39,709 nucleotides of DNA from the NCBI GenBank assembly GCA_005809105.1, contig SYLI01000008.1, positions 1-39,709 of the forward strand, written 5' to 3'. The stretch's first letter is position 1, and each line of letters begins with the position of its first letter. Positions 6,957 through 24,259 of the stretch are shown piece by piece. Source of the DNA: Verrucomicrobiales bacterium (GTDB taxonomy: Bacteria; Verrucomicrobiota; Verrucomicrobiia; Limisphaerales; UBA1100). Both the position numbers and the translations under genes were made by a program. The notes beneath the pieces were generated by a model. That model did not search any database. It was not told the DNA's origin and saw nothing but the letters and a program-made list of their open reading frames with translations.

Positions 6957-8476
6957 GCCGTGAATCCGGAGTCGGACGCGCCGCCGGTGGCCAGTTGCAT
7001 CAGGGCTTCTTCGGTGAGGCGCGCGCGGGGCAGTTCCCCCGCCAGCCGGCCCTCGTGCATCACCAGCACGCGGTCGGCCATGCCCAGCACCTCCTCCATC
7101 TCGCTGGAGGCAAAGAGCACCGCCACGCCCCGCGCGGCCAGCCCGTCCATCAGCCGGTAGATTTCGCGCTTGGCACCGACATCGATGCCGCGTGTGGGTT
7201 CATCGAGCAGCAGCAGGTGCGGGTCGAGTGCCAGCCACTTGCCCAGCACGATCTTCTGTTGGTTGCCGCCGGAGAGGTTTTGAACCGCCTGATCCAGTCC
7301 CGGAGTTTTGACACCCAACTGATCAACCGTCCGCCGCGCCACAAGTTCCTCCGCTGCGCGGTTGAGCAGCCCCCGGCGCTGGTCGCGGCGCAGGCTGGGA
7401 AGGCTGGCGTTTTCACGCACCGACATCGGCAGCACCAATCCGTGCTGCTTGCGGTCCTCGGGGGCGAGGGCCATGCCTGCGCCGATGGCGTCGGACGCAT
7501 TCCGAAGCCTCTGGACACGCCCGCGCACGCGCACCTGGCCTCCGAGTGCGGGGGTGATACCAAAGAGCGTCTGCAGCAACTCGGTGCGCCCGGCGCCCAC
7601 CAGTCCCGCCAGGGCCACCACCTCGCCGGCGCGGACTTGGAAGGACAACTCGCGCCCCGGATGGGCCGGGGTGCGCAGGCGGTCCACCTCCAGCACGACG
7701 TCGCCGGGCTGTTGGGGCTGCCGCACATAAAACTGCGAGAGGTCGCGCCCCACCATGAGCCGCACCATCGCCTCAGGCACGATGGCGGCGCGGTCCATCT
7801 CGCCGGCGTTTTCGCCGTCGCGCAACACCACCACGCGGTCGGCCAGCGCCTTCACTTCGCCCAGCCGGTGGGAGATGTAGATGACGCCCAAGCCCTGCGA
7901 GCGCAAGTCGCGCACCACGTGGAAGAGCGTGTCGGTTTCGTGCCGAGAAAGACTGCTCGTGGGCTCATCCATGATGAGAATCCGCGCCTGGCTGCTGAGG
8001 GCCTTGGCAATTTCCACCAGTTGCTGGCGGCCGATGGGCAGCGTCCCCACCAGCGTGTCGGGCGACTCCTTGAGCCCCACGCGGTCAAGCTGCTCGCGCG
8101 CCCCGGCCCGGATGCTCGCGTGGTCGATCCACCCGCCGCGGCCCGGTTCGCGCCCCAGAAAGAGGTTGGCGCCAATGTCCAGATTGTCGGCGAGGTTGAG
8201 CTCTTGATGGATGAGTGCAATGCCCAGCCGCTGCGCGGCACGGACGCTAGGCAACCGGACGGGCTTTCCCCCCACGAGGATTTCGCCGCTGTCGGGCGAC
8301 TGCACGCCGGCGAGGATTTTCATGAGCGTGCTCTTGCCCGCGCCAGTCTCGCCGATGACCGCGAGGACTTCGCCGCGGTGCAACGTCAGGCTGACGCCCC
8401 GCAGGGCGCGAACACCGGGGAACTGCTTGGTCAGTTGCCGAGCCTGGAGAAGCGCGGTGGGGGCAACGTCGGCCAT
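6953..8476 (-). CDS. Sugar ABC transporter ATP-binding protein with two ABC domains (RbsA/MglA/XylG type)
   Basis: This encodes 507 residues with two tandem ABC domains. The first has Walker A GETGAGKST (42-50; most relatives have GENGAGKS), a signature of form LPIGRQQLVEIAKAL and Walker B ILIMDEPTSSLS. The second has a degenerate Walker A (GLVGAGRTEL), a canonical NLSGGNQQKIVLGKWL signature and LLLLDEPTRGID. This asymmetry is normal for the monosaccharide importer family. The start is the ATG at 8476, 5 bases after the binding-protein stop; a longer open frame reaching 8656 would run into that gene and has no family similarity. It powers the permease encoded at 5985-6956. Confidence 0.93.
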   Translation of the reverse strand: MADVAPTALLQARQLTKQFPGVRALRGVSLTLHRGEVLAVIGETGAGKSTLMKILAGVQSPDSGEILVGGKPVRLPSVRAAQRLGIALIHQELNLADNLDIGANLFLGREPGRGGWIDHASIRAGAREQLDRVGLKESPDTLVGTLPIGRQQLVEIAKALSSQARILIMDEPTSSLSRHETDTLFHVVRDLRSQGLGVIYISHRLGEVKALADRVVVLRDGENAGEMDRAAIVPEAMVRLMVGRDLSQFYVRQPQQPGDVVLEVDRLRTPAHPGRELSFQVRAGEVVALAGLVGAGRTELLQTLFGITPALGGQVRVRGRVQRLRNASDAIGAGMALAPEDRKQHGLVLPMSVRENASLPSLRRDQRRGLLNRAAEELVARRTVDQLGVKTPGLDQAVQNLSGGNQQKIVLGKWLALDPHLLLLDEPTRGIDVGAKREIYRLMDGLAARGVAVLFASSEMEEVLGMADRVLVMHEGRLAGELPRARLTEEALMQLATGGASDSGFTA

Positions 8477-8481
8477 GGGCT

Positions 8482-9522
8482 TTAGGGCTGCTTGCCCAGG
8501 GCCTCCATCCGCCGCTTCTCGGCCCAGAACTCGTCGATGTTCGCCTTCGTCACCACAAGGAAGGGAATCTCCAAGAACCGATTCTCTGGCACGGCCTGCT
8601 TGTCGCCATCGAGGATTTGCTTGAGCACACGCACCGACTCGTATCCGTACTTCCACGGCTGCTGGCTAATCGTGCCGTGCACGGTGCCCTCCTTGATGCC
8701 AGCCAGCGCCGCGTCCTGTTCGTCAAAGCCGCAGATCTTGATCTTGCCCGTCTTGCCGGCTTCCTTGACGGCGTCCAGACACGCCGGCGGGTTGTACGCG
8801 AAGAGGCCCACCATGCAGGCCAGATTTTCGTGCTTGGTCATCGCATCCTCCGCGTTGGACTTGGCGCGCGCCTTGTCAAAGTCGTCGGTGCGCGTGTCCA
8901 GCACGGTGAAGCGCTCGCCCTTGATGGCGCCGGCGACGGGGTCGAACTTCACGTCCGTGGCACTTTGAGAGGGCCGGTCGAGCAGTTCATCAATCACGCC
9001 CTGCCGGCGCTGGCGTGCGTTGAGCTGCTCCAGGCGCCCGACAAAGATCATCACCTCGCCACCCCCGGGCAGGGCTTCCTTCACCAGCTTGCCCAGCGCG
9101 CGCCCCGCCTTGTAATTGTCGGTGCCGATGTAGCACAGGCGCGCGCTCTTGGGGGCGTCGGCGTCCTGCGTGATGAGCTTGGTCTGCTTGGCGGCGTCGT
9201 TGAGAAAGGCCGTCTGGTTGTCGGCGTCGATGGGGCTCACCGCGATGCCGGAAATTCCCTTGGCCAGCAGGGTTTCCAAAATGCGCTGCTGATCCACCAG
9301 CCCCTTGTTGGGCATGTGCACCTCGCACTCGATGCCCAGCGCCTTCTCGGCATGGCGCACGCCGCCCGCGCAGAGATCCCAGAAGGGGTCCACGCCGTTG
9401 GTGACATACGCAATCTTGGGCTTCTTTGCGCCGCCGGTCTTGGGGTCGTCACCAGAGGGATTGCAGCTGGAGAGCAGCAGCAGCGATGCGGCGAGGGACG
9501 CAGAAACGAGGAACGACTTCAT
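8482..9522 (-). CDS. Sugar-type ABC transporter substrate-binding lipoprotein (periplasmic-binding protein 4 family)
   Basis: This encodes 346 residues with a lipoprotein signal, MKSFLVSASLAASLLLLSSC, in which Cys20 is the expected lipidation site. The mature part starts near KPKIAYVTNGVDPFWDLCAGG and continues with features of the ribose/galactose-type binding fold (QQRILETLLAKGISGIAVSP, then CYIGTDNYKAGRALGKLV). It would capture a sugar or related ligand in the periplasm for the ATPase and permease that follow. No Shine-Dalgarno sequence precedes the ATG; a promoter-like element ends only 9 bases upstream. The ligand is unknown. The related autoinducer-2 and polyol binders of the same fold are alternatives. 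Confidence 0.92.
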   Translation of the reverse strand: MKSFLVSASLAASLLLLSSCNPSGDDPKTGGAKKPKIAYVTNGVDPFWDLCAGGVRHAEKALGIECEVHMPNKGLVDQQRILETLLAKGISGIAVSPIDADNQTAFLNDAAKQTKLITQDADAPKSARLCYIGTDNYKAGRALGKLVKEALPGGGEVMIFVGRLEQLNARQRRQGVIDELLDRPSQSATDVKFDPVAGAIKGERFTVLDTRTDDFDKARAKSNAEDAMTKHENLACMVGLFAYNPPACLDAVKEAGKTGKIKICGFDEQDAALAGIKEGTVHGTISQQPWKYGYESVRVLKQILDGDKQAVPENRFLEIPFLVVTKANIDEFWAEKRRMEALGKQP

Positions 9523-11191: not shown

Positions 11192-11998
11192 ATGCAGGTG
11201 TTTATTTTTCAAGGCGGCGCACAGGAAGGGCCCTACACGATGGACCGCCTTCAGGCGCTGCAGAGTGCCCACCAGGTGGCACCCGATGCGTTGGCTTGGC
11301 ACGAGGGATTGGCCGGGTGGGTTCCGGTGGCGCAGGTGCTGAAGTCCGAAGGGGGAGCGGTGCGCGCGCCCGGTGGATTCGTGTCGGTCGCTCCCAAAGA
11401 AAGCGAAAGCGAACGCGGCCTTTTCGTCGAGCATCAGCCAGGTTACTCGCGCCTCCAGCTCTTGATGCGCGGCTTTCTGGGCTGGATTTACATCGGCATT
11501 CCGCACGGGGTGCCGTTGTGTTTCATGGGGCTGGCCAGCACGTTCTGCACGTTCATCGCGTTCTTTGCCATCCTTTTCACCGGGCGCTATCCCGTGGGGC
11601 TGCGTGGATTTGTGATTGGCGTCATGCAATGGCAGTCGCGTGTGGCGGCGTCGCTGGGCCACCTGGTGGATGGCTACCCGGAGTTTGGGCTGGGCAATCG
11701 CGGCACGCTCGTCCGGTCGGTGACGGTGCCGCCGGAAACCTACAGCCGGCTCAACATCCTCCTGCGGGTGTTTTTTGGCTGGCTCTTCGTGCTCATCCCA
11801 CACGGGTTTTGTTTGATCTTCCGGGGGATGGCGACGGGCGTGGTGACGCTGGTGGCCTTCTTCATCGTGCTGTTCACGGGGCAATTCCCACCGGGGATGC
11901 ACGAGTTCATCGTGGGCACCATGCGCTGGGGCACGCGATTGGGCGAATACCTGCTCTTCCTGAGCAACGACTATCCGCCCTTCTCCGGCAAGCCTTAA
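11192..11998 (+). CDS. GYF-domain membrane protein with two DUF4389 repeats
   Basis: This encodes 268 residues. Residues 1-50 (FIFQGGAQEGPYTMDRLQAL, later LAWHEGLAGWVPV) fit the bacterial GYF_2 domain, a small proline-peptide-binding fold. Two repeats of about 85 residues follow (about 84-165 and 183-268). Each has YSRL..L.R.F.GW, IPHG, a hydrophobic stretch ending AFF..LFTG, then P.G...F..G.M.W..R and L..YP.F. This matches DUF4389, a family of small membrane proteins. Each repeat has one to two membrane-spanning segments, so the GYF domain probably lies in the cytoplasm. I chose the ATG at 11192 because the GYF domain starts there; an upstream TTG at 11138 is less likely. Its stop overlaps the convergent metzincin stop. 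Confidence 0.85.
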   Translation: MQVFIFQGGAQEGPYTMDRLQALQSAHQVAPDALAWHEGLAGWVPVAQVLKSEGGAVRAPGGFVSVAPKESESERGLFVEHQPGYSRLQLLMRGFLGWIYIGIPHGVPLCFMGLASTFCTFIAFFAILFTGRYPVGLRGFVIGVMQWQSRVAASLGHLVDGYPEFGLGNRGTLVRSVTVPPETYSRLNILLRVFFGWLFVLIPHGFCLIFRGMATGVVTLVAFFIVLFTGQFPPGMHEFIVGTMRWGTRLGEYLLFLSNDYPPFSGKP

Positions 11999-12771
11999 GG
12001 CGGCGTGGGGGCCGTACCATTGCCGGATCGGTCGCGGGCACGGCGCACTTCGGGGCAGTCCAAGGGCAAGTGGCGTAATTGACGGTAGAGCGCGTCGGCT
12101 TCGGCGCGCTTGCCTGCGCCAAAGAGCGCGTCGGCTTCCTTCATGAGGGTGGAAGCAGGCTGCGCCCACGGCCATTGTGCGGCGGTGGCGCGGGCGGTCT
12201 CAATCTCCTTGGCTTCGAGGGACCATCCCGTGGTGCCGCTGGCCATCAGGTTGGTCACGGCTTGCCGATGGGGAAGGCCCAGGGCGTGGCCCAATTCATG
12301 GGAGGTCACCCGCGGCAGGGGCTCATCGAGGCCGCCTTCCACGGCCCGCAATCGCGCCGTGTCTTTCACCACCATGGATTGCTGGCGCAAGAACACGCCG
12401 TTCACGGCAAATTGCTTGATGTAGTACACGTGCAGGCAATCGGCGCGGCGTGATTTGGCGGGGAAGCACTTTAAGAGCCAGTCCAACTGGCGTGCGTCCC
12501 TGTTCACTGCGGCCAGCTCGGGCATCAGGGCGGCTTCGGTGACAAGGCTCTCGAGGGTGAAGTGCAGCCCGGCTTGGGCCCACACGCGGTTGACCTTGGA
12601 GAGGATCCTCTCGATGTCCGCAGGCGAAAGGGTGGTGCGCAGCGACGGCTCGGTTGGGGATTGCAGCCGGTGGACGCGCAAGGGCAGGATCCGAAAATCG
12701 GCAAAAGCAAAGGGAGGCGGGGCATCGGCGCCGCCAAGCGACAGTGTGCCAAGCAAGGCCAGGAGTCTCAT
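11995..12771 (-). CDS. Secreted metzincin-like zinc metalloprotease
   Basis: This encodes 258 residues. The catalytic motif HELGHALGLPH (158-168) is a full metzincin HExxHxxGxxH, with His158, His162 and His168 as zinc ligands and Glu159 as general base. A Met-turn follows at the expected distance (NLMASG, Met176). A short hydrophobic N-terminus (MRLLALLGTLSLGGADA) suggests export. The ATG at 12771 was chosen because the signal-like sequence starts there; the frame is open further to 12933 without similarity. The C-terminal 70 residues include a TPR-like helix pair (ADALFGAGKRAEADALYRQL). It resembles matrixin-like or other small bacterial metzincins. The substrate is unknown. Its stop shares four bases with the convergent GYF gene. 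Confidence 0.85.
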   Translation of the reverse strand: MRLLALLGTLSLGGADAPPPFAFADFRILPLRVHRLQSPTEPSLRTTLSPADIERILSKVNRVWAQAGLHFTLESLVTEAALMPELAAVNRDARQLDWLLKCFPAKSRRADCLHVYYIKQFAVNGVFLRQQSMVVKDTARLRAVEGGLDEPLPRVTSHELGHALGLPHRQAVTNLMASGTTGWSLEAKEIETARATAAQWPWAQPASTLMKEADALFGAGKRAEADALYRQLRHLPLDCPEVRRARDRSGNGTAPTPP

Positions 12772-12780
12772 CTGCGGGGG

Positions 12781-12809
12781 ATTGTAGCGTCCGGACGCCG
12801 CCCGGGCAA
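12781..12809 (-). promoter_or_regulatory. Candidate promoter for the metzincin gene
   Basis: On the minus strand, TTGCCC (12809-12804), a 17-base spacer and TACAAT (12786-12781, preceded by GC). The -10 is 9 bases from the ATG, and no Shine-Dalgarno sequence is present. The rest of the divergent gap up to 12925 gave no clear promoter for the DUF1501 gene. Confidence 0.5.
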
Positions 12810-12925
12810 AAGCGTTTTGGGCTGACCCTGATCTCCTGCACATCAGGATTGATTTTGGATGAATAGGCTGCCAGTCTCTCACATCGAACGAGGCGACAAA
12901 TAACCGGAAGGTCGAGCCAATTTGT

Positions 12926-14275
12926 ATGAACAAACACAGTGCGTTTCAGTGGTGTGGCGGTGCGGATCATGCGGGAAATCCCAACCGGCGCGATTTCCTC
13001 TATGTGGGTGCGCTGGGCGGTCTCGGGTTGACGCTGGGTGATCTCTTCAAGCATCAGGCGCGGGCTGCGGGCGAGGACTGGAAGGACGTCGCCAAGGCCT
13101 CCAAGGAAGGCAAGGCCAAGAGCGTCATCCAGATCTTCATGCCGGGCGGTTCGGCCCATCAGGAGTCGTGGGATCCCAAGCATCTGGCGCCGCAGGAATA
13201 CCGTGGCCCGCTGGGCACGGTGGCCACCACCATCCCGGGGGAATACTTCTCCGAGAACATGAAGCTGACGGCCAAGGTGGCCAACAAGATCACCGTCATC
13301 CGGTCCATGACCCATGGCGAGGCTGCGCACGAGCGCGGCACGCACAACATGATGACGGGCGTGCGGCCCAGCCCGGCGGTGGTGTTTCCCGGCATGGGCA
13401 GCATCGTCAGCCACGAATTTGGACCGCGCAAGAACCTGCCCCCGTACGTGGCCATCCCCTCGATGCTCGGCTACGGCGGCACGGGCTACTTGGGAAGTGC
13501 GTTCGGTCCGTTCAGCCTCGGGGCCGATCCGGGCAACGGCGGCTTCAAGGTGCGCGATCTGGCGCTGCCCAGCGGCATCACCGACAAACGCTTTGACACC
13601 CGCAAGAACATGCGGGCCGTGGTGGACTCGCACTTCAGCGCGCTGGAAAAGGCCGACACGCTGGTGGGCATGGACACGTTTTATGAGCGCGCCTACTCGC
13701 TCGTCAGCTCTGATGCGGCGCGGGCGGCGTTTGACATTGAACAGGAACCGGCCGCCCTGCGCGACGAATACGGGCGCAACACCGCCGGCGGGCGCTTCCT
13801 TCTGGCCCGGCGCCTTGTGGAGGCCGGAGTGCGGTTTGTGTCCACCAGCTACGGCGGCTGGGATCACCACAGCAACATCGCCGGTGCCAACGGCGGCCAG
13901 ATGCCCGCGTTTGACCAGGCGTTTGCCGCGCTGATCAATGACCTGGATCGCCGCGGGCTGCTGGAGAGCACGCTGGTGATTGTGAACAGCGAATTTGGCC
14001 GCACTCCGAAGATCAACCGCGACGCAGGCCGCGACCACTGGCCCAAGGTGTTCAGTGTGGCGATGGCCGGTGGCGGCATGAAGCGCGGTTACATTCATGG
14101 AGCTTCCGATCCGACGGGTGCGGAGCCTGACGAAGATCCCGTGAGCGTCGAGGATTGGGCGTCTACGGTGTATTCGCTGATTGGCATCGACCCGATGCGG
14201 CGCCTGCTCGGACCAGGCAACCGGCCCATGCCGATCAACTACGACGGCCAGGTGCTCAAGGACGCGCTGGCGTAG
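12926..14275 (+). CDS. Tat-exported DUF1501 protein (alkaline-phosphatase/sulfatase-like fold)
   Basis: This encodes 449 residues. The N-terminus carries a twin-arginine signal (NRRDFLYVGALGGLGLTLGDL, residues about 20-40), then the DUF1501 hallmarks: KSVIQIFMPGGSAHQESWDPK, MTHGEAAHERGTHNMMTG, YGGWDHHSN and VIVNSEFGRTPKIN. The family belongs to the alkaline-phosphatase-like superfamily and is very abundant in Planctomycetes and Verrucomicrobia, usually next to DUF1549/DUF1553 genes; its biochemical role is not settled. Here it leads a four-gene plus-strand cluster, but a strong hairpin separates it from the next gene. The sequence GGAAGG (about 12904) is 16 bases before ATG, too far to be a firm ribosome site. 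Confidence 0.93.
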   Translation: MNKHSAFQWCGGADHAGNPNRRDFLYVGALGGLGLTLGDLFKHQARAAGEDWKDVAKASKEGKAKSVIQIFMPGGSAHQESWDPKHLAPQEYRGPLGTVATTIPGEYFSENMKLTAKVANKITVIRSMTHGEAAHERGTHNMMTGVRPSPAVVFPGMGSIVSHEFGPRKNLPPYVAIPSMLGYGGTGYLGSAFGPFSLGADPGNGGFKVRDLALPSGITDKRFDTRKNMRAVVDSHFSALEKADTLVGMDTFYERAYSLVSSDAARAAFDIEQEPAALRDEYGRNTAGGRFLLARRLVEAGVRFVSTSYGGWDHHSNIAGANGGQMPAFDQAFAALINDLDRRGLLESTLVIVNSEFGRTPKINRDAGRDHWPKVFSVAMAGGGMKRGYIHGASDPTGAEPDEDPVSVEDWASTVYSLIGIDPMRRLLGPGNRPMPINYDGQVLKDALA

Positions 14276-14315
14276 TGGCCAAAGGTCATCGAAGCGCAGC
14301 AGGGGATTCATCTTC

Positions 14316-14355
14316 GCCGGGGCAATGTCGTGAAGATATTGCCCCGGCTTATTTG
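14316..14355 (+). terminator. Strong hairpin between DUF1501 and PPC genes (terminator or attenuator)
   Basis: A perfect 11-bp inverted repeat (14316-14326 with 14338-14348) can be extended by GTC/GAT (one G-T pair) to a 14-bp stem with a 5-base loop. It is followed by TTATTT, a weak T-tract. It lies inside a co-directional gene cluster, so partial termination or mRNA stabilisation is as likely as full termination. Confidence 0.75.
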
Positions 14356-14372
14356 GGACTGTTGGGACTGAT

Positions 14373-16775
14373 ATGAAGAGGCTAATTGCAGGGGTTGCCG
14401 TGCTGGCAGGCGCAGGACTGGCGTGGGCGGTGGATCCGCGGCTGGGTGCCATCACCCCCAAAGGAGTCCAGGCCGGAACCGAGGTGGTGCTGACGTTTAG
14501 TGGTCAGCGTCTGGACGACGCCAAGGGGCTGATTTTCTACCGGCCCGGATTCCAGGTGGTCGCGCTGGAGGAAGTGAAGGAGAACTTCGTGCGCGCGAAG
14601 GTTCAAATCGCCGCCAACTGCCCGCTGGGAGAGCACCATGTGCGAGTGCGAACCGCCGGCGGGGTGACGGAACTTCGCACGTTTTTCGTCGGCCCCTTCC
14701 CCATCGTGGCGAAGGTGGCCCCCAAACCCGGCGAGGGCCTGCAGGTGCTGCCCATCAACTGTACCGTGATGGGCTCGGTGCCGGGCGAGTCGGTGGACCG
14801 CTATATCATCAAGGCAAAGAAAGACCAGCGCGTGTCGGCCGAGGTCGAATGCATGCGTCTGGGACAGGGTTTTTACGATCCGCACGTTGCCATCATCACT
14901 CCGAAGGGATTCGTGCTGGCGCGGTCGGATGACACGCCGCTGTTCGTTCAGGATTGTTTCGCCTCCGCCAAAATTCCCGAGGACGGTGATTACACGGTGG
15001 AGGTGCGCGAAACCAGCTATGGGCCGCTGGGGATGTACCGGCTGCATGTGGGTGCGTTCGCGCGCCCGACGGCCGTGTATCCGGCGGGCGGCCCCTCGGG
15101 CCAGGATTTGACGGTGCGGTTCATCGACAAGGCCACGGGCGACTTTCAGGAGACCTTGAAGCTCCTCGCGCCAGACTCCTGCCAGCTCACCGACGGCCGC
15201 ATGGAGCAGCCGGGCTTGAACGACTCCGGAGCCTTCGCGGCGCGCGATGGCGTCATTGCCCCATCTTGGAACCGGCTGCGGATTTCCAACTTTCCCAATG
15301 CCCTGGAGGTGGAGCCCAACGACGCCGTGGGCAACGCCACCGTGGTGGCCGGCGATTTGCCCATGGCGTTTAACGGCATCATCGAGAAGCCCGGCGACGT
15401 TGATTGGTTCACCTTCAAGGGCAAGGCCGGTCAGCAGTACGACGTGCATGTCTACGCACGGCGGCTGAGGTCGGGCTTGGACTCGGTGCTCAACATCGGC
15501 AACGCCGCCGGCGGCGGCATCACCGGCAACGACGACTCCGGCGGGCCCGACAGCTACGTGCGCTTTGGCGTGCCGGCCGATGGCAACTACACCCTTCGCA
15601 TCACCGACCATCTGGGCGCCGGCGGCCCGGACTTTGTGTACCGCGTGGAATTCCAGCCCGTGGCGCCCAGCCTCTCGGTTTACGTGCCGGATGTCTCGCT
15701 GTATGACACGCAGACGCGCAAGTCGGTCGTGGTGGCGCGTGGCAACCGGTTCCCGCTGGTTCTCAATGCGCGCCGCGGCAACTTCGGCGGCGAACTCAAA
15801 CTGGCTGCCAAAGACTTCCCCCCGGGCGTCACCCTCAGCGCCGCTCCCATGGCGGCCAACCAGAGCACGCTCACGATGGTGTTTGAGGCCGCGGCCGACG
15901 CGCCAGTGGGTGGCGGGCTGGGCAACCTGGTGGCCTCGCTGGTGCCTCCCACCAATGCACCGCCCACCACCTCCATCCTCACGGGAAGCATCTGGCAGAA
16001 CTTCGACCTCGTGCAGCGAGGCAATCAGGGCGTGGACTACCGCACCTGGGCCGACCGCATCGCCGTGGCGGTGGTGGATGAGTTGCCCTTCAAGATTCGC
16101 GTGGAGCCCATTCGCGCGCCGCTCGTGCGCAATGGGACGCTGCCCGTCAGGATCATCGCCGAGCGCACGGGCGACTTCAAGGGGGCCATCAACGTCCAGA
16201 TGCTCACCCGCCCGCCGGGCCTCAACTGTCCTTCGTCCATTGACATTCCCGCCGACCAGACCTCGGGCAGCTACAACTTCAGCGCCGAGGCCGGCGCCGA
16301 GGTGAAGCTGCATCAGATCGCGATGCTGGGATCCAGCGGCGTGAAGGGCGGCAACGCCTACGTGTCCACCCAGCTCGCGGACTTGAACATCCAGGATCAG
16401 TTTGTCACCGGCAACATGCCCATCGCCACGACGATCCAGGGCTATCCGACGCTGGTGAAATGCGAGCTCGCCCAGAAGGTGGAATTCGCCGGCAAGGCCA
16501 GGGTGGAACTCCTGGGACTGCCCGCCGGCGCCACCACGCAGCCGGTGGAGATGACCAAGGACACCAAGGAGCTCATCTTTTCCATCGTCACCACGCCCGA
16601 CGCGCGCGTGGGTCTGCACCGCACGCTGCTCTGCCAGATGACCGTGACCTTCAACGACACCCAGCTTACTCAGACGTTCGGAGAACGCGGCACGCTGCGC
16701 ATCGATCCGCCGCCGCCGCCGCCGCAACCCCGCAAGCCGGTGGACACCGGCGTTGCGCCCAAGCCCGCAGAATAG
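14373..16775 (+). CDS. Large secreted protein with pre-peptidase C-terminal (PPC) domains
   Basis: This encodes 800 residues with a signal peptide ending near residue 19 (GAGLAWA|VDP). An IPT/Ig-like region follows (about 20-110: ITPKGVQAGTEVVLTFSGQRLDD). A first PPC-like domain spans about 125-228 (VDRYIIKAKKDQRVSAEVEC, then EDGDYTVEVRE). A clear second one lies at about 309-430 (ALEVEPNDAVGNAT, GDVDWFTFKGKAGQQYDVHV, DGNYTLRITDH). Two or three further Ig-like beta regions follow, and the C-terminus is a PPPPPPQPRKP tail. No protease motif is visible. PPC domains are secreted beta-sandwiches. Proteins of this type commonly sit with DUF1549/DUF1553 genes in Planctomycetes and Verrucomicrobia, as here (30 bases upstream of one). 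I infer a binding or scaffold role. Confidence 0.87.
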   Translation: MKRLIAGVAVLAGAGLAWAVDPRLGAITPKGVQAGTEVVLTFSGQRLDDAKGLIFYRPGFQVVALEEVKENFVRAKVQIAANCPLGEHHVRVRTAGGVTELRTFFVGPFPIVAKVAPKPGEGLQVLPINCTVMGSVPGESVDRYIIKAKKDQRVSAEVECMRLGQGFYDPHVAIITPKGFVLARSDDTPLFVQDCFASAKIPEDGDYTVEVRETSYGPLGMYRLHVGAFARPTAVYPAGGPSGQDLTVRFIDKATGDFQETLKLLAPDSCQLTDGRMEQPGLNDSGAFAARDGVIAPSWNRLRISNFPNALEVEPNDAVGNATVVAGDLPMAFNGIIEKPGDVDWFTFKGKAGQQYDVHVYARRLRSGLDSVLNIGNAAGGGITGNDDSGGPDSYVRFGVPADGNYTLRITDHLGAGGPDFVYRVEFQPVAPSLSVYVPDVSLYDTQTRKSVVVARGNRFPLVLNARRGNFGGELKLAAKDFPPGVTLSAAPMAANQSTLTMVFEAAADAPVGGGLGNLVASLVPPTNAPPTTSILTGSIWQNFDLVQRGNQGVDYRTWADRIAVAVVDELPFKIRVEPIRAPLVRNGTLPVRIIAERTGDFKGAINVQMLTRPPGLNCPSSIDIPADQTSGSYNFSAEAGAEVKLHQIAMLGSSGVKGGNAYVSTQLADLNIQDQFVTGNMPIATTIQGYPTLVKCELAQKVEFAGKARVELLGLPAGATTQPVEMTKDTKELIFSIVTTPDARVGLHRTLLCQMTVTFNDTQLTQTFGERGTLRIDPPPPPPQPRKPVDTGVAPKPAE

Positions 16776-16805
16776 CCTGTAAATCCCCCGCCAAGACACC
16801 GCCGT

Positions 16806-19229
16806 ATGAAACTGCAATGGATGATCCTCTGGGCCGCCGCGCCATTATGCGCGCTGGCCGCACCGCAGACGCTGGTGGACGTGCAGGTGTACCCGCCCAA
16901 GGCGCACCTGACGACCAGCCGCGACTTTCAGGCGCTCATTGTTCAGGCCAAGTATTCGGACAGCACCACGCGAGATGTCACCCTCCAGACCAAGTTCACG
17001 CTGGCCAGCCCCGCGACGGCAAAGTTGGAGGGCAACGTCGTGCGGCCCCTGGCCGATGGCGAGACGTCCATCAAGCTGGAGTTTGAGGGGCGCGCACTCA
17101 CGGTTCCCGTGAAGGTGGAGAAGGCTGCGGTGGATCGCCCCGTCAGCTTTCTTCAGGATGTGATGCCCGTGTTCACCAAGGCCGGATGCAATGCCGGAAG
17201 CTGCCACGGCTCGACGCGCGGCAAGGATGGATTCAAGCTCTCGCTCTTTGGCTTTAATCCCCCGAGCGACTACTTCCAGCTCACCCGCGAGAACGTCGGC
17301 CGGCGCATCAATCTTGCGCTGCCCCATGATAGTTTGATCCTCGAGAAGGCCACGGGCCGCGTGACGCACACGGGCGGCAAACTCTTTGATGCAGAGAGCG
17401 GGCTCTACAAGACGATCCTGCGCTGGCTGGAGGCAGGTGCCCCCAACGATCCGGCGGACATCCCCAAGGTGGTGGATGTCGAGGTGCGACCGCTTCAGGC
17501 GGTGATGGAGGGGGCCGGCGCGCAGCAGCAGTTGGTGGTGCGCGCCATCTATTCCGACGGCACCGATCGCGATGTCACGGCCGAGACCCAGTTTATTTCC
17601 AACAACAACATGGCCGCCAAGGCGACGGGCACGGGAATGGTGACTTCAGGCGAGCGCGGCGAGGCCTTCATCCTCGCGCGGTACGACCAGTTCACCGTGG
17701 GCACGCAAATCCTCTCCATACCCAAGGACCCGACGTACGCTTTCCCCGCCGAGCCGGAGGCCAACTACATCGATGGCTTGGTGTACAACAAGCACAAGAA
17801 GATCCGCATCACGCCCAGCGGGATTTGCGATGACGGCACGTTCATACGCCGCATCCACCTCGACATCATTGGCAAGCTGCCCGATCAGGCCACGGTGGAG
17901 CAATTTGCGGCCGACAAGTCCCCCGACAAGCGTGCCCGGCTCATCGAAGAACTTCTGGCGCGGCCGGAGTTCGTGCGCATCTGGGTGATGAAATGGGCGG
18001 AGCTGCTGCAGATCCGGACCGACAACAACCAGTTCCAGTACAAGAATGCGGTGCTCTACTTTGAATGGCTGCGCGGCCAGTTTGAAGCCAACCGGCCGAT
18101 GAACGAGATCGTGCAGGAGCTGCTCGGGGCGCGCGGCGGCACCTTCTCCAACCCCGCCGGCAACTTTTACCAGATTGAGCGCGACACGCTCAAGCTCACC
18201 GAGAACGCCGTCCAGATCTTCATGGGAATGCGCATTCAGTGCGCGCAGTGCCACAACCACCCGTTCGACCGGTGGACGATGGACGACTACTACTCGTTCG
18301 CCAATTTCTTCTCGCAGGTCGGCCGCAAGGGCGGCGAAGATAACCGCGAAATCATCATCTACAACTCGGGTGGCGGCGCGGTCACTCATCCCGTGGGAAA
18401 CCGTGTCCTGCCCCCCAAGTTTCTGGGTGGGGCCGTGCCCGATGTTCAGGGCAAGGACCGCCGCGAATTGCTGGCCAAGTGGCTGGCCTCGCCGGAGAAC
18501 CCGTTCTTTGCCAGGAACCTGGCAAACATTGTCTGGGCGCATTTCCTGGGCAAGGGCATCGTCGAGCCGGTGGATGATGTGCGCATCAGCAACCCGCCAT
18601 CCAACCCCGAGCTGCTGGACGAACTGGGCAAGCGCTTTCAGCAATCCAACTACAATTTCAAGCAGCTCGTGCGGGAGATCTGCAATTCCCGCACCTATCA
18701 GCGCACGGTGCAGTCCAATCCCTCCAACATCGAGGACGGCAGCAATTTCTCGAAGGCGTCTGTGCGGCGCATGCGGGCCGAGGTGCTTCTGGATGTCATC
18801 ACGCAGGTGACGGACACAAAGAACAAATTCCCCGGACTGCCGCTGGGTTCCAGCGCGGCCGAGATCGTGGACGGTCGCACGAGCACGTTCTTCCTCACGA
18901 CCTTCGGCCGGGCGACCCGGGACACGGTCTGTTCGTGCGAGGTGGCGCTGGAGCCCAACCTCTCGCAGGCCTTGCACCTGCTCAACGGCGACATTGTCAA
19001 CGACCGGTGCGTGGAGGGCGGCGTGGTGGCCAAGTTGCTGCAAGCCAAGAAGACGCCCGAGGAGATCCTCGACACCCTCTATGTACGCTGCCTGGCGCGC
19101 AAGCCCAACGAGGGGGAGAAGGCGCGGCTTCTGGAGTTTCTCAAGGAACCCGGCCGCACCCCGCAGGAAGTGTTGAACGACGTTTTTTGGGCGGTGTTGA
19201 ATTCCAAGGAATTCATCTTCAATCACTAG
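16806..19229 (+). CDS. Secreted DUF1549/DUF1553 protein with heme-type CxxCH motifs (PSCyt2/PSD1)
   Basis: This encodes 807 residues with a signal peptide (MKLQWMILWAAAPLCALA|APQ). An Ig-like region (20-110) precedes CNAGSCH (about 128-134), a CX4CH motif that could bind heme c. A second Ig-like stretch follows. The DUF1549 region (about 318-530) begins YIDGLVYNKHKK and has FIRRIHLDIIGKLPD; it contains CAQCHNHPFDRW (about residue 478), a CxxCH motif conserved in the family. The DUF1553 region (about 550-795) has RRELLAKWLASPENPFFARN, PSNPELLDELG, REICNSRTYQRT and LFLLNGDIV-type blocks (LHLLNGDIVNDR). The family is exported and of uncertain function, and is proposed to act in oxidative or polymer-degrading systems. 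The gene sits between the PPC and PSCyt1-WD40 genes on the same strand. Confidence 0.92.
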   Translation: MKLQWMILWAAAPLCALAAPQTLVDVQVYPPKAHLTTSRDFQALIVQAKYSDSTTRDVTLQTKFTLASPATAKLEGNVVRPLADGETSIKLEFEGRALTVPVKVEKAAVDRPVSFLQDVMPVFTKAGCNAGSCHGSTRGKDGFKLSLFGFNPPSDYFQLTRENVGRRINLALPHDSLILEKATGRVTHTGGKLFDAESGLYKTILRWLEAGAPNDPADIPKVVDVEVRPLQAVMEGAGAQQQLVVRAIYSDGTDRDVTAETQFISNNNMAAKATGTGMVTSGERGEAFILARYDQFTVGTQILSIPKDPTYAFPAEPEANYIDGLVYNKHKKIRITPSGICDDGTFIRRIHLDIIGKLPDQATVEQFAADKSPDKRARLIEELLARPEFVRIWVMKWAELLQIRTDNNQFQYKNAVLYFEWLRGQFEANRPMNEIVQELLGARGGTFSNPAGNFYQIERDTLKLTENAVQIFMGMRIQCAQCHNHPFDRWTMDDYYSFANFFSQVGRKGGEDNREIIIYNSGGGAVTHPVGNRVLPPKFLGGAVPDVQGKDRRELLAKWLASPENPFFARNLANIVWAHFLGKGIVEPVDDVRISNPPSNPELLDELGKRFQQSNYNFKQLVREICNSRTYQRTVQSNPSNIEDGSNFSKASVRRMRAEVLLDVITQVTDTKNKFPGLPLGSSAAEIVDGRTSTFFLTTFGRATRDTVCSCEVALEPNLSQALHLLNGDIVNDRCVEGGVVAKLLQAKKTPEEILDTLYVRCLARKPNEGEKARLLEFLKEPGRTPQEVLNDVFWAVLNSKEFIFNH

Positions 19230-19293
19230 AAACCAGAATGCCCGGGGGACTGCGCGGGTTGGCGTGGGTGGCGCCGGAGGGAGAACCAAGTTT

Positions 19294-22200
19294 ATGAGAC
19301 CAATCGCACACTTGTGGGGGATGGCGCTGGCAGCGCTTGGAGTCATGGCGTTGCCTGCGGCCGACAAGACGACGTTTGACGACCAGGTGTTGCCCATTTT
19401 CCGCAACAAGTGTCTCAAGTGCCACAATCCGGACCGGATGAGGGCCGATCTGGATCTCTCCACATTCGATGCGGCCTTGAAGGGCAGCGGCAATGGAGCG
19501 GTGTTGGCCAGTGGCGATCCCAATGGCAGCAAGCTGCTCAAGGTGGTGACCCACGAGGAGAAGCCCACCATGCCGCCGGATGACAAGCTGCCGGCAGCCG
19601 AGATCGAGGTCATCCGCCAGTGGATTGCCGGGGGGCTGCTGCAAAATTCCGGCAGCAAAGCCATCTCGGCCAGCAAGCCCAAGGTCAACCTGGTGGTGGA
19701 TGCCAATGCCACGGGCCGCCCCGCAGGGCCGCCGCCCATGCCCGACCACGTGCTGGCACTCGATCCCTACGTGCGCACCGTCCGTACCAGCGTGGCCACG
19801 GCCATGGCGCACAACCCGTGGTCGCCGATCGTGGCCATCGGCGGCCAGCGTCAGGTGCTTCTGTTTAACACCGACACCCTGCGCGTGGCGGGCATCATCC
19901 CCTTTCCCGACGGCTATCCCAACTGCGTGCGGTTCAGCGCGAATGGGCGGCTGCTCATCATTGGGGGCGGGCGCGGCGCCAACAAAGGCATCTCCACCGT
20001 CTGGGACATCACCACCGGAGTGCAGGTGCTGACGGTCGGCGACGACCTCGACGCCGTGCTCTCCACCGACATCTCCCCCAATCAGCGGTTCATCGCCCAC
20101 GGTGGGCCCGACCGGCTGGTCCGGATTTTTTCGACGGAGACCGGCGAGCTGGTTCACAAGATCAAGAAGCACACCGACTGGATCACGTCGGTCCGCTTCA
20201 GCGTGGACAGCAAGCACGTGGCCACGGGCGACCGCGGCGGCGGCCTGCATGTGTGGGAGGTCGAGCCCGGGCAGATTGTCGGCACCCTTCCCGGCCACAC
20301 CGACCGCATCACCGGCCTGGAATGGGCCACCACCAACATCGTGGCCTCCGCCAGCATGGATTCCACGGCGCGCCTTTGGAACACCGACACGATTTCGCAG
20401 GTGGGCAACTGGGGCGCACACGGCGCCGGCGCCATGTCACTGGCGCGCGCGCCCTCGGGCCAGCTCGTCACCTCAGGCGGCAACAACCGCGCGACGCTCT
20501 GGAATCCGGGTGGTGCCCGCGTCATGGACTTTGTGTTCCCCGGTGAGATGCCCGCGCAGGCCGCCCTTTCCCACGACAGCAGGCGCGTCGTCGGAAGTGA
20601 CTGGTCGGGTCTTGTGTATGTGTGGAATGCGGCCGACGGCAAGGAAGTCGGGCGCCTGACCACCAATCCTGAGACGCAGGCTGAACAACTGGTTCTGGTG
20701 ATCAAGGCCCGGGAGGACAAGCAAGCGGCGGCCACGGCCGCACAGGCCGCCCTCAAGGCCGCCCAGGATCAGGTTGCGGCAGCGCAGGCGCGAATGGCGG
20801 CGCTCGATGCCGCCGTTGCGGCGCAGCAGAAATCCGTGGCCGATGCCAAGGCCAACATCGACAAGGCCGTCACGGGCAAACAAAAGCCCGCGCAGGACAA
20901 TGCGGCCGCCGCAACCAAGGCGCTCACCGACGGCCAAACCGCAAAAACGGCCGCTGACCAGGCCTTGACGACTGCGAACGCGGTGGTGACCACCGCGGCG
21001 CAAGCTCATCAGGTTGCGGCACAGGCCGCGGCCACCAGCGCCAAACTCGCGACGGACGCCCAGAATGACGCGGCCAAGCCCCCGGCTGAAAAACAAAAAC
21101 TCGCCGCAGACGCCGCCGCGAAGAAGGAGGCTGAAGTGGCCGCCAAAGCCGCTTGGGACAAGCTCAAGACCGATCAGCAGGTGCCTGCCCAAAACAAGGC
21201 GGCCGCCGCCGCAAAGGCGCTCGCCGACGCGCTGGCAGCCAAGACCGAAATGGACAAGCTGCTCGTGGCTGCCAACACCGAAGTGCAGGCTGCCGATGTG
21301 GTTTTCAAGGCGGCCCAAAAGAGCCTTGCAGATGCGCAGCAAGCCGCCCAGACGGGCAAGCCGGTGGCTTTGCAACAGGTGGATGCGCTCACCAAACAAA
21401 TGCCCGACTTGCAGAACAAGTCAGCAGGCGCTGCCGCTGAACTCGTGTCGGCGCAGGAGGCCGTGGTCATGACCGAGCTGGGGAAGGGCTTCAGCCAGTT
21501 TTACAACTTGCGGCGCGAGACCGAAGATCAAAAGGCCCGGGCCGATCAGTCCCAAGCCGCCAGCCAGGCCGCGCAAGCAGCCTTGCAGTCGGCGCGTTTG
21601 GCTCTCGCGACGGCGAAGGGATTGAATGTGGACGCCCTCAAGGCCCAGCGCGCCGAGGGCATCAAGAAGGCGCAGACAGAGCAGGCTACGGCCGGCCAGG
21701 ATCTTGCGGTGGTTTCCGTGGAGGTGGCCAAGGCAAACACGGCCATCGCCGAAGCCACCAAGTCGGCGTCGGATGCAGAAGCGACCCTCAAGACCGCCGC
21801 CGCCAACATGGAGAGCGCCAAGGCGTCGATGCAGAAGGCCGCTGCCGCAGCGAAGGCCGCCCGCGACAAGGCAACGGCTGAGAAGGCGGTGCAGGACAAG
21901 TTCGCGGCCGAGAAACACGCACCTGCAATGGCCGCGTTGGATGGTGCAACCAAAGCCATGATCAAGGTTGCCGCAGACAAGGCGGCGGGGGACAAAGTGT
22001 TGGCCGGCGCCACGGCTGAAGCCGCGGGAGCCGCGGTCGCATTCCAGTTTGCAGACAAGGCCGCCCAGGCTTCGGAGGCGGCTGTTGCCGCGGGAAAGGC
22101 CGAAGCGCAGGCGGTCTTGGCCGAACTAAACAAGCTGCTCAACGAAGCGAAGGCGGAGCACGCGCGCCAGGTGGCCGCAAAGGCCGACAATGCAACCTTG

Positions 22201-22920
22201 GAAACACTGGCCAACGAAACCATCAAGCCCGTCGAGGCAGCGTTGGTGAAGCTCACCGCGGGATGGGCGGCCCAGCAGGGCCTTGCGGCCAGTCAACGTG
22301 ACGCCGCGGTTGCCGCCAAGGTGTTAAACGAAAAAAAGACCGCCGGAAAAACCGCGGCGACGACCGCGGCGAACGCCGCGGCGGCAACGCTGGCCACGGC
22401 GACCGCCGCCCGGGAAGCCGCGGCAAAGTCGGCAGCCCAGATGACCGCCGAGTTGGGCGAGTTTTCAAAACGTCATCAAGCGGCTGACCAATCAGCCAAG
22501 ACAGCCGAAGCGGCGGTGCCTCCGGCCGAGGCCGAGCTTGCCCGGATGGTGGCCGCGGCCGGTGTGTCCAAATCAGCGGCAGACGCATCGAACCTGAAGC
22601 TTGCGACGGCGAAGGCGGCGATGGCCAAGGTGGTTTCCGAAAAGCAGCAGCCTGCGGAATCGCGGGTGGCCGCGGCAAAGCAGGCTCTCGCCGACGCGCA
22701 GCTTTCCCACCAGAACACCGAGGCAGATCATGCAGCGAATCTGGTGTCACTGGCCAAAGCCGAACAGGCGGGGGCGACAGTGGCCTCGGAGAAGGCCGCG
22801 CAGGCTGCCCAGCTGGCCCGTGATCTTGCGGCAATCCAAGCGCGCTTGGCCGAAGTGAAGGCAGCGTACGACAAGCTCAAGTCCGCGATCAGTGCGCCGA
22901 AGTCGGCTGCAACCAAGTGA
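19294..22920 (+). CDS. PSCyt1 cytochrome c plus WD40 repeats plus giant Ala-rich helical tail
   Basis: This encodes 1208 residues. A signal peptide (MRPIAHLWGMALAALGVMALPAA) is followed by a planctomycete cytochrome c domain: VLPIFRNKCLKCHNPDRMR, with CLKCH heme motif at about residue 40, and EEKPTMPPDD near residue 90. WD40-type blades follow (about 160-455; for example ITSVRFSVDSKHVATGDRGG, GLHVWEVEPGQ, ASASMDSTARLWNTD). From about 460 to the end, roughly 745 residues are extremely Ala/Lys/Gln/Asp-rich and nearly all helix-favouring, with quasi-repeats such as KQKPAQDNAAAATKAL (527), QVPAQNKAAAAAKAL (627) and KQQPAESRVAAAKQAL (1116). The ATG at 19294 starts the signal peptide; GGAGG at 19276-19280 is 13 bases away. 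The tail may be a long coiled coil or a periplasm-spanning rod (inference). Confidence 0.9.
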   Translation: MRPIAHLWGMALAALGVMALPAADKTTFDDQVLPIFRNKCLKCHNPDRMRADLDLSTFDAALKGSGNGAVLASGDPNGSKLLKVVTHEEKPTMPPDDKLPAAEIEVIRQWIAGGLLQNSGSKAISASKPKVNLVVDANATGRPAGPPPMPDHVLALDPYVRTVRTSVATAMAHNPWSPIVAIGGQRQVLLFNTDTLRVAGIIPFPDGYPNCVRFSANGRLLIIGGGRGANKGISTVWDITTGVQVLTVGDDLDAVLSTDISPNQRFIAHGGPDRLVRIFSTETGELVHKIKKHTDWITSVRFSVDSKHVATGDRGGGLHVWEVEPGQIVGTLPGHTDRITGLEWATTNIVASASMDSTARLWNTDTISQVGNWGAHGAGAMSLARAPSGQLVTSGGNNRATLWNPGGARVMDFVFPGEMPAQAALSHDSRRVVGSDWSGLVYVWNAADGKEVGRLTTNPETQAEQLVLVIKAREDKQAAATAAQAALKAAQDQVAAAQARMAALDAAVAAQQKSVADAKANIDKAVTGKQKPAQDNAAAATKALTDGQTAKTAADQALTTANAVVTTAAQAHQVAAQAAATSAKLATDAQNDAAKPPAEKQKLAADAAAKKEAEVAAKAAWDKLKTDQQVPAQNKAAAAAKALADALAAKTEMDKLLVAANTEVQAADVVFKAAQKSLADAQQAAQTGKPVALQQVDALTKQMPDLQNKSAGAAAELVSAQEAVVMTELGKGFSQFYNLRRETEDQKARADQSQAASQAAQAALQSARLALATAKGLNVDALKAQRAEGIKKAQTEQATAGQDLAVVSVEVAKANTAIAEATKSASDAEATLKTAAANMESAKASMQKAAAAAKAARDKATAEKAVQDKFAAEKHAPAMAALDGATKAMIKVAADKAAGDKVLAGATAEAAGAAVAFQFADKAAQASEAAVAAGKAEAQAVLAELNKLLNEAKAEHARQVAAKADNATLETLANETIKPVEAALVKLTAGWAAQQGLAASQRDAAVAAKVLNEKKTAGKTAATTAANAAAATLATATAAREAAAKSAAQMTAELGEFSKRHQAADQSAKTAEAAVPPAEAELARMVAAAGVSKSAADASNLKLATAKAAMAKVVSEKQQPAESRVAAAKQALADAQLSHQNTEADHAANLVSLAKAEQAGATVASEKAAQAAQLARDLAAIQARLAEVKAAYDKLKSAISAPKSAATK

Positions 22921-22954: not shown

Positions 22955-24259
22955 TTAGGATGACTGAAGCCAGGGCGGCACGCATTCTCCGGCCCAAATG
23001 GACTCGACGGGCTGGCGGCGCCTCACCAACGCTGCGCGTTTGCCTTTGACCAGCACCTCCGCGGCGAGCGCACGGGAGTTGTAGTTCGAGGCCATGACGA
23101 ATCCGTAGGCGCCAGCGCTCAAGAGCGCGAGATGTTCGCCCTCTCCCACCTTCGGCAAGGGACGATCCTTGCAAAAGAAGTCGCCCGATTCGCACACCGG
23201 CCCCACCACATCGGTGGTAATGCGTGCTCCGGCCTTCCTGCGTACGGGCACAATCTCATGGTACGAGTCGTAGAACGCCGGCCGGATGAGGTCATTCATC
23301 GCGGCGTCCACGATGACAAAGGTCTTCTTGCCCGTGCGCTTCACGTGTTCGACGCGGGTGACGAGGATGCCCGCATTGCCGACGATGAACCGGCCCGGCT
23401 CGATGACGATGCGCAGGTTGAGCGGCTGCAGGAGCGGCACGAGCGTCGCGGCATAGGTTGCAGGCGTCAGAATGCCCCGGGCCGCACTCGATTTCCACCA
23501 CGCGGCACCCGCACTGGCCAGCGCTTCACGGTAGATGATGCCCAGGCCGCCGCCGATGCTGAAGAATTCAAAACCATGCCGCTGCGCCAGCCGGCTTGTC
23601 AGCGGAAGCATTTTTCGCACGGCGCGCTCGAAGGGCTCCACCGTCGTCAACTGGCTGCCGATGTGCATCTGGATGCCTCGCAGTCGCAGGTTGGGCATCC
23701 GTGCCGCCCGTGCATACACCGCCTCCACCTCCTCAAAGGCGATGCCAAATTTGTTCTCGTAAGTGCCCGTCGTGATTTTGGCGTGCGTGCCGGCATCCAC
23801 GTTGGGATTGACCCGCACCGCCACGGGGGCTCGCTTGCCCAGTCGCGCGGCCACGCGCTGAATGCGTTCCAACTCCGGCTCGCTTTCCACATTAAACGCG
23901 TAGAGGCCCCGGCGCAGAGCAAAGGCAATCTCGTCCTCGGTTTTGCCCACGCCGGCAAACACGCACTTGCGTGGGTCGCCACCGGCGGCGATCACCCGGC
24001 GGATTTCCCCTTCGCTCACGGTGTCAAATCCGCCACCGCAGCGGGCCAGCGTGCGGATCACCGCACGATTGGAGTTCGCCTTGACGGCGAAGCAGATGAG
24101 ATGGTCCAGCGGCGCCAGCGCGCGGTCGAGTTTTTGGTAATGATCCTCCAGCGTGGACTGCGAGTAGACGTAGAGAGGCGTTCCATGGTCCCTGACGAGG
24201 CGTTCAATGGCGACACCTTCGCAGTGCAGGCCCGGGCCGATGTAGCGGAACTCGTGCAT
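22955..24259 (-). CDS. lysA: Diaminopimelate decarboxylase
   Basis: This encodes 434 residues, the usual length. It is a fold-type III PLP enzyme that converts meso-diaminopimelate to lysine in the last step of lysine synthesis, in the cytoplasm. The PLP lysine is Lys60 in CFAVKAN; other hallmarks are MHIGSQ (His199), the glycine-rich GGGLG (236-240), EPGR (287-290) and CESGD with Cys356 at the dimer-interface active site. It is the last gene of the minus-strand group from 28.2 kb. The 80-base upstream gap has no clear lysine riboswitch. The ATG at 24259 is in the expected place (MHEFRYIGPGLHCEG). Related arginine or ornithine decarboxylases of the same fold are less likely given CESGD. Confidence 0.95.
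   Translation of the reverse strand: MHEFRYIGPGLHCEGVAIERLVRDHGTPLYVYSQSTLEDHYQKLDRALAPLDHLICFAVKANSNRAVIRTLARCGGGFDTVSEGEIRRVIAAGGDPRKCVFAGVGKTEDEIAFALRRGLYAFNVESEPELERIQRVAARLGKRAPVAVRVNPNVDAGTHAKITTGTYENKFGIAFEEVEAVYARAARMPNLRLRGIQMHIGSQLTTVEPFERAVRKMLPLTSRLAQRHGFEFFSIGGGLGIIYREALASAGAAWWKSSAARGILTPATYAATLVPLLQPLNLRIVIEPGRFIVGNAGILVTRVEHVKRTGKKTFVIVDAAMNDLIRPAFYDSYHEIVPVRRKAGARITTDVVGPVCESGDFFCKDRPLPKVGEGEHLALLSAGAYGFVMASNYNSRALAAEVLVKGKRAALVRRRQPVESIWAGECVPPWLQSS

Follow-up and report, generated by a model that had tools for sequence, protein, structure and literature searches.

Do four large exported proteins, encoded in a row on one strand of a Verrucomicrobiales genome, form a single periplasmic machine, and what would such a machine do? 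The window in which this question arises, 39,709 nucleotides long, spans the entire contig C69 of a draft genome of 3.0 Mb in 106 contigs. Among the named relatives in the collection, a Lake Baikal MAG labelled Pedosphaera is the closest, gene 2 being 81% identical. The DUF1501 and PSCyt2/PSD1 families have remained unassigned for about two decades, yet DUF1501 and DUF1549 genes together fill, by open-frame length, about 8% of this 3 Mb genome. Here, we propose, with a probability of about 0.5, that the four genes encode one old periplasmic complex made of a predicted metal-binding subunit of phosphatase fold and a cytochrome c relay.

Four co-directional genes encode exported proteins

A sequence-only reading had placed at this locus four co-directional genes with DUF1501, PPC, DUF1549/DUF1553 and PSCyt1-WD40 domains, and each of these domains was indeed matched by Pfam. 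The motifs named in it were also at the right positions, i.e., NRRDFL in gene 1, CNAGSCH and CAQCH in gene 3, and CLKCH in gene 4. The open frames, all on the + strand, lie at 12926-14275, 14373-16775, 16806-19229 and 19264-22920, flanked by a metzincin-like gene in divergent orientation (11995-12933, -) and by lysA in convergent orientation (22955-24259).

Gene 1 encodes 449 amino acids with a twin-arginine signal (R21R22) and matches the DUF1501 profile PF07394 over positions 1-389 of 390 (E = 1.5e-104, 350.7 bits against a gathering threshold of 27). The product of gene 2 (800 aa) is Sec-exported and combines an N-terminal Ig-like region with a PPC domain at residues 342-411 (PF04151, E = 1.2e-11, 45.7 bits against a gathering threshold of 25.9). 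Gene 3 encodes 807 aa with a Sec signal, arranged as an Ig-like domain, a putative cytochrome domain with a CX4CH motif, a second Ig-like domain (Big_2), DUF1549 and DUF1553. It matches both PSCyt2/DUF1549 (PF07583, E = 9.2e-46) and PSD1/DUF1553 (PF07587, E = 8.3e-43) and has a CxxCH motif in the same protein, which places it among the PSCyt2/PSD1 proteins; a weak DUF1800 match (residues 566-804, E = 0.0035) stayed below the cut-off. Gene 4, the only one of the four whose start was corrected, most likely begins at ATG 19294 and not at GTG 19264, since GGAGGGAG stands 10 nt upstream of it (19276-19283) and a signal peptide begins at the ATG. Read from this ATG (19294-22920, +), it encodes 1208 aa, comprising a PSCyt1 domain (PF07635, E = 4.3e-13), a propeller of WD40 repeats and an Ala/Lys-rich coiled-coil rod; the profile match, a CxxCH and a Met-Pro-Pro motif assign it to the PSCyt1 proteins.

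The order of the four genes is conserved in two phyla

Relatives were collected by scanning a gene 2 alignment against one genome per species, which gave at least 561 of them, and the best 80 loci were examined. Gene order in relatives had been set beforehand as the point on which the proposed cluster could fail. These 80 loci come from Verrucomicrobiota and Planctomycetota; 66 of them have all four genes, with the same order and strand in every case. In tblastn against regions of relatives in the order, every complete orthologous locus read DUF1501, PPC, DUF1549/1553 and PSCyt1-WD40 on a single strand. The remaining 14 loci were mostly cut by contig ends, and the true exceptions were L125 (without gene 4), L151 (gene 2 alone) and L123 (fourth slot replaced). 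The four genes also stood in order in 14 of 18 further whole genomes, including some from outside the class of the window in which gene 2 identity was only 25-29%; two others had genes 1 and 2 only (L205 and L216) and two had gene 2 only (L213 and L217). The existence of such partial sets indicates that parts of the cluster are separable. The cluster occurs in 36 of 146 genomes of the order and in 19 of 288 sampled across the phylum, a patchy distribution, and most genomes possessing it have a single copy. The suggestion that the DUF1501/DUF1549 pair is here unusually split by a PPC gene had to be abandoned, as the PPC gene normally stands second in this lineage.

Two natural variants bear on the relation between the products. 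In L149 (9965-14746, +) genes 2 and 3 are fused in-frame into one frame of 1594 aa. In L123, a 472-aa di-haem protein of the DHOR/MauG type with two CxxCH motifs (15044-16462, +) directly follows the DUF1549/1553 gene and takes the place of PSCyt1-WD40. This fusion and this replacement point to a physical, electron-transferring complex, and the same order across Verrucomicrobiota and Planctomycetota makes it probable that the four genes form one periplasmic electron-handling machine. Three further loci (L206, L208 and L214) have an additional stand-alone PSCyt1 gene between genes 2 and 3.

No fifth conserved gene was found in the flanks of the 80 loci; what recurs there are family-level neighbours (lysA, metzincin and ABC transporter genes), scattered sulfatases and DUF1501 paralogues. 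The divergent metzincin-like gene of the window encodes an exported protease with HELGHALGLPH and a later NLMASG, and it stands upstream of the cluster throughout the family of the window and rarely beyond. A sugar-type ABC ATPase also recurs upstream in this family, and the window itself has a frame for an ABC transporter ATPase, with two stretches of ABC_tran, at 6953-8656 (-). A protein with FG-GAP repeats and a C-terminal ASPIC/UnbV domain is encoded at 3432-5972 (+).

The cluster is one of many DUF1501/DUF1549 clusters in its genome

Family searches of the own genome returned 71 DUF1501, 47 DUF1549 and 40 PSCyt1 matches. A same-strand DUF1501 gene was present within 6 kb of 46 of the 47 DUF1549 genes; 300 random placements gave 6 such genes on average and 13 at most. 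The module of the window is one among many such clusters. The DUF1549 genes split into 31 high-scoring and 16 low-scoring members, gene 3 belonging to the latter. The exact four-gene order is repeated only on contig C34, where the PSCyt1-WD40 protein has 505 aa and is devoid of the long rod; on C31 the same ingredients occur in a permuted order.

Genes 3 and 4 carry conserved haem-type motifs

Gene 3 has a CX4CH haem-type motif (CNAGSCH; C128, C133 and H134; 17187-17207, +), a CxxCHxH motif within DUF1549 (CAQCH; C479, C482, H483 and H485; 18240-18260, +) and a CxC motif in DUF1553 (C709 and C711; 18930-18938, +). In gene 4 the haem motif is CLKCH (C50, C53 and H54; 19411-19425, +), and the Met-Pro-Pro motif offers M103 (19570-19572) as the candidate distal ligand. 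The haem-type residues pointed out by the sequence-only reading are conserved in relatives: CX4CHG was found in 70/70 and CxQCHNH in 69/70 complete gene 3 orthologues, and CxxCH in 59/59 orthologues of gene 4, among which the Met-Pro/Ala motif was kept in 57 and M103 in at least 95%. Across 67 gene 3 sequences, C128, C133, H134, H188, C479, C482, H483, H485, C626 and C711 are invariant, and C709 is present in 66.

An hhalign comparison aligned the CX4CH region of gene 3 and the PSCyt1 domain of gene 4 over their whole length (89 columns, E = 1.6e-5), with H188 (17367-17369) placed on the conserved H97 of gene 4, and with the Met-Pro-Pro motif lost. From these three observations we infer that it is a divergent, PSCyt1-derived cytochrome domain whose haem motif has gained a two-residue insertion. 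H188 is the best candidate for the distal ligand, and the domain is probably bis-His ligated, via H134 and H188. Haem motifs of the CX4CH type are present in tetrahaem cytochromes c3.

When 21 DUF1549 paralogues from the own genome were aligned, CxxCH was present in all of them, and C711 in 9/9 of those with the CX4CH domain and 0/12 of the others; such a co-occurrence would have a chance of 1 in 294,000 if the genes were independent, which related genes are not. Since C711 occurs only in CX4CH-bearing paralogues, the CxC motif belongs with the CX4CH cytochrome domain and not with the DUF1549 site. The idea that CxC completes a CxxCH metal site throughout the family was weakened, as 12 of the 21 paralogues have CxxCH without C711.

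In the AF2 model of gene 3, pLDDT was below 50 at residues 129-140, 479-487 and 690-725, i.e., in the motif loops. A structure search matched the Ig-like domains alone to solved folds, with a likeness to surface and S-layer proteins, and found no solved structural relative of the DUF1549/DUF1553 part. As to maturation, the genes for ResB and for a CcsA-type protein lie about 2 kb from each other on contig C8 of the own genome, which indicates a System II-like route. On the grounds of motif conservation and the presence of ResB/CcsA, the products of genes 3 and 4 are predicted to be c-type cytochromes.

At the upstream end of gene 3 in L084 (about 5500-5760, -) we noted a possible zinc-ribbon-like extension of the N-terminus that would contain a transmembrane helix and two CPxC pairs; it was not found among the 70 complete gene 3 sequences. 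It suggests an inner-membrane-anchored form of the protein in some relatives.

The rod of gene 4 grows by internal duplication

The rod (20671-22917, +) is an Ala-rich helical tail of low conservation with an internal repeat of 99 residues. In orthologues the cytochrome and propeller head is conserved, but the tail is not: it is Ala- and Lys-rich and varies from 161 to 901 residues, with lengths clustering near 217 and 432-453. An ungapped offset scan revealed that the L119 tail is a tandem duplication (offset of 218, 73% identity), and in L128 and L130 the offset was 211; self-BLAST of the gene 4 rod returned no repeat, but the ungapped scan did find repeats. The rod has thus been lengthened by internal duplication, a mode of growth that would suit a spacer.

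Gene 1 is predicted to have an alkaline phosphatase fold

The AF2 model of gene 1 (mean pLDDT of 69, pTM of 0.75) had enzymes of the alkaline phosphatase superfamily as its best-ranked matches (Foldseek, 1.9e-6; VIA Z of 16.8 over 240 aa to ENPP6). Residues 60-449 are therefore predicted to adopt this fold. The core of the superfamily was found in the model, while its canonical metal ligands and Ser/Thr/Cys nucleophile were not. A candidate metal site is present instead. Its first half is H130-x-E132-x2-H135-x4-H140 (HGEAAHERGTH; 13313-13345, +), with H130, E132 and H135 conserved in 70/70 sequences and H140 in 69/70; the second half consists of W312-D313-x-H315, S-E356-F-G-R-T and G-R-D370-H371 (13862-14038, +), conserved in 70/70. 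H135 lies 9 residues before T144-G145, where sulfatases and NPPs have the nucleophile, a placement made by eye on spacing only. SEFGRT aligned with the SDNG metal motif of sulfatases in a profile comparison (E = 0.005, low probability, both alignments being shallow) in which the sulfatase profile was built from sulfatases of neighbouring genes. Without the canonical ligands the protein may act as a binder that has no enzymatic activity; export of a folded protein by the Tat route would fit a metal-containing subunit.

A stem-loop lies between genes 1 and 2

The gap between genes 1 and 2 contains a stem-loop with a 14 bp stem and a 5 nt loop (14316-14348, +). It is conserved in Verrucomicrobiota orthologues (GGGGCAAT...ATTGCCCC), and many Planctomycetota have other stems instead. 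Stems of at least 9 bp were found in 46 of 74 gene 1-2 gaps, with 9.2 expected from base-shuffled sequence, and in 12/46 and 16/48 of the later gaps of the cluster (3.0 and 6.7 expected). In an alignment of 18 Verrucomicrobiota sequences 97.3% of cells were paired, a figure inflated by the choice of rows for having a stem; five pairs change on both sides, and the covariation score was reached by 0/500 shuffles. Within the window the stem-loop occurs nowhere else; the C34 paralogue cluster does not have it, and it matched no Rfam family. In the simplest reading it is a weak (leaky) terminator or a processing hairpin, which would set the amount of gene 1 product relative to those of genes 2-4.

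A putative electron-handling complex and its alternatives

On this view the four genes would make up one transcription unit, a DUF1501 module that has been inherited vertically and encodes a periplasmic complex. In such a complex the Tat-exported, folded and predicted metal-binding gene 1 protein would hold or convert a substrate, and the Ig/PPC protein of gene 2 would be the scaffold between it and gene 3. The latter would bind at most two c-type haems, one in the CX4CH domain and one at the DUF1549 CxxCHxH; it also has the CxC pair linked with CX4CH, and it would take electrons from chemistry at the DUF1501/DUF1549 interface. Electrons would leave through gene 4, where a His/Met cytochrome would sit on a WD40 propeller used for docking and a coiled-coil rod of adjustable length may serve as a tether towards the respiratory chain. 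An exported redox assembly, as originally suggested, is the leading reading on account of the conserved unit, the invariant Cys and His residues, the ResB/CcsA pair and the c-type di-haem protein in slot 4. The surface position suggested along with it fares less well: genes 1 and 3 have plain Tat and Sec signals and no lipobox or outer-membrane anchor was seen in them, which fits the periplasm better.

Several observations would also suit a carbohydrate-binding or cell-envelope scaffold built of Ig-like, PPC, WD40 and rod domains, in which the haem-type motifs now play a structural part, forming disulphides or a site for zinc or iron. Gene 3 has Ig-like domains reminiscent of surface and S-layer proteins, the rod of gene 4 is long and variable in length, gene 1 is devoid of canonical alkaline phosphatase ligands, and related PSCyt genes contain carbohydrate-binding modules (PMC5615132). 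However, the proximal His and both Cys of the three motifs never or almost never vary, whereas a disulphide needs neither H134 nor H483; moreover, the Met-Pro/Ala motif is maintained in nearly all gene 4 orthologues, and it is another c-type cytochrome that takes the place of gene 4 in L123. We consider such a scaffold unlikely. A narrower alternative, which we also hold to be unlikely, leaves cytochrome function to the CX4CH and PSCyt1 domains alone and has the DUF1549 CxxCHxH bind a non-haem metal, perhaps together with the DUF1553 CxC. The conserved extra His (H485) speaks for it, as do the invariant or nearly invariant C709/C711 in orthologues and the DUF1549/1553 part that matched no solved relative; but in the paralogues CxxCH is universal and C711 is confined to the nine with CX4CH, so CxC is no standing partner of this site.

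A link of the module to the intracellular membranes of PVC bacteria, after Kamneva et al. 2012 as cited in PMC4452313 and PMC4960237, seems very unlikely to us. These two papers report its preferential presence in compartmentalised PVC species, but dozens of copies per genome and the association with sulfatases (PMC5615132) would better fit substrate-specific enzymes. The periplasmic complex remains our preferred reading, and it has a bolder form, namely that the complex represents a novel class of oxidoreductases in the periplasm, where a subunit of alkaline phosphatase fold with a rebuilt His/Glu/Asp metal centre works with a DUF1549/DUF1553 cytochrome, the dozens of copies per genome acting on different substrates. 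This form seems unlikely; if true, the substrate side of a haem-linked redox enzyme would have arisen from a hydrolase fold. Of the forms found, the one with four genes is the easiest to study, being mostly present in one copy, with fixed order and clear haem motifs in two phyla, and as a defined protein set it could open up the function of the whole DUF1501/PSCyt2 family.

Comparison with known systems

PMC4452313, PMC4960237 and PMC5122149 credit Kamneva et al. 2012 with a DUF1501 genomic module of PVC bacteria; as presented there, it is likewise a cluster conserved around DUF1501 that encodes exported proteins and has no assigned function. The linkage of DUF1501 to exported PSCyt2/PSD1 proteins was found here in 66/66 loci and for 46/47 own-genome DUF1549 genes. 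PSCyt and PSD domains are abundant in freshwater Verrucomicrobia, where they accompany a fixed set of uncharacterised genes and have no assigned function (PMC5615132), and Planctomycetes WD40 genes often adjoin DUF1501 (PMC5587647). We therefore read the cluster as a conserved variant of a known but uncharacterised kind. New here are its fixed four-gene form in two phyla, the likeness of the CX4CH domain to PSCyt1 and its coupling to CxC, the gene 2-3 fusion, the slot-4 replacement, the predicted alkaline phosphatase fold of DUF1501 with its rebuilt site, the stem-loop and the growth of the rod, although Kamneva et al. 2012 may contain part of this.

With the alkaline phosphatase superfamily (NPP/ENPP, sulfatases, LtaS) gene 1 shares the predicted fold, but it has SEFG in place of SD(H/N)G and, as placed by eye, a His at the nucleophile position. 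DUF1501-DUF1800 pairs (PMC5122149) likewise have a Tat-type DUF1501 beside a DUF1800 protein, the family to which gene 3 has its weak match; unlike in the window, no cytochrome domains and no PPC or WD40 gene are reported for them in that source. The "planctomycete-specific" PSCyt1/PSCyt2/PSD1 cytochrome genes (PMC5615132; R. baltica RB10051, PMC2754498) have the same domains, with PSCyt2 genes usually adjoining a fixed family of unknown genes and with Big_2 and WD40 architectures noted. Compared with these, the cluster described here is an orthologous subtype of four fixed genes, mostly single copy and common to two phyla.
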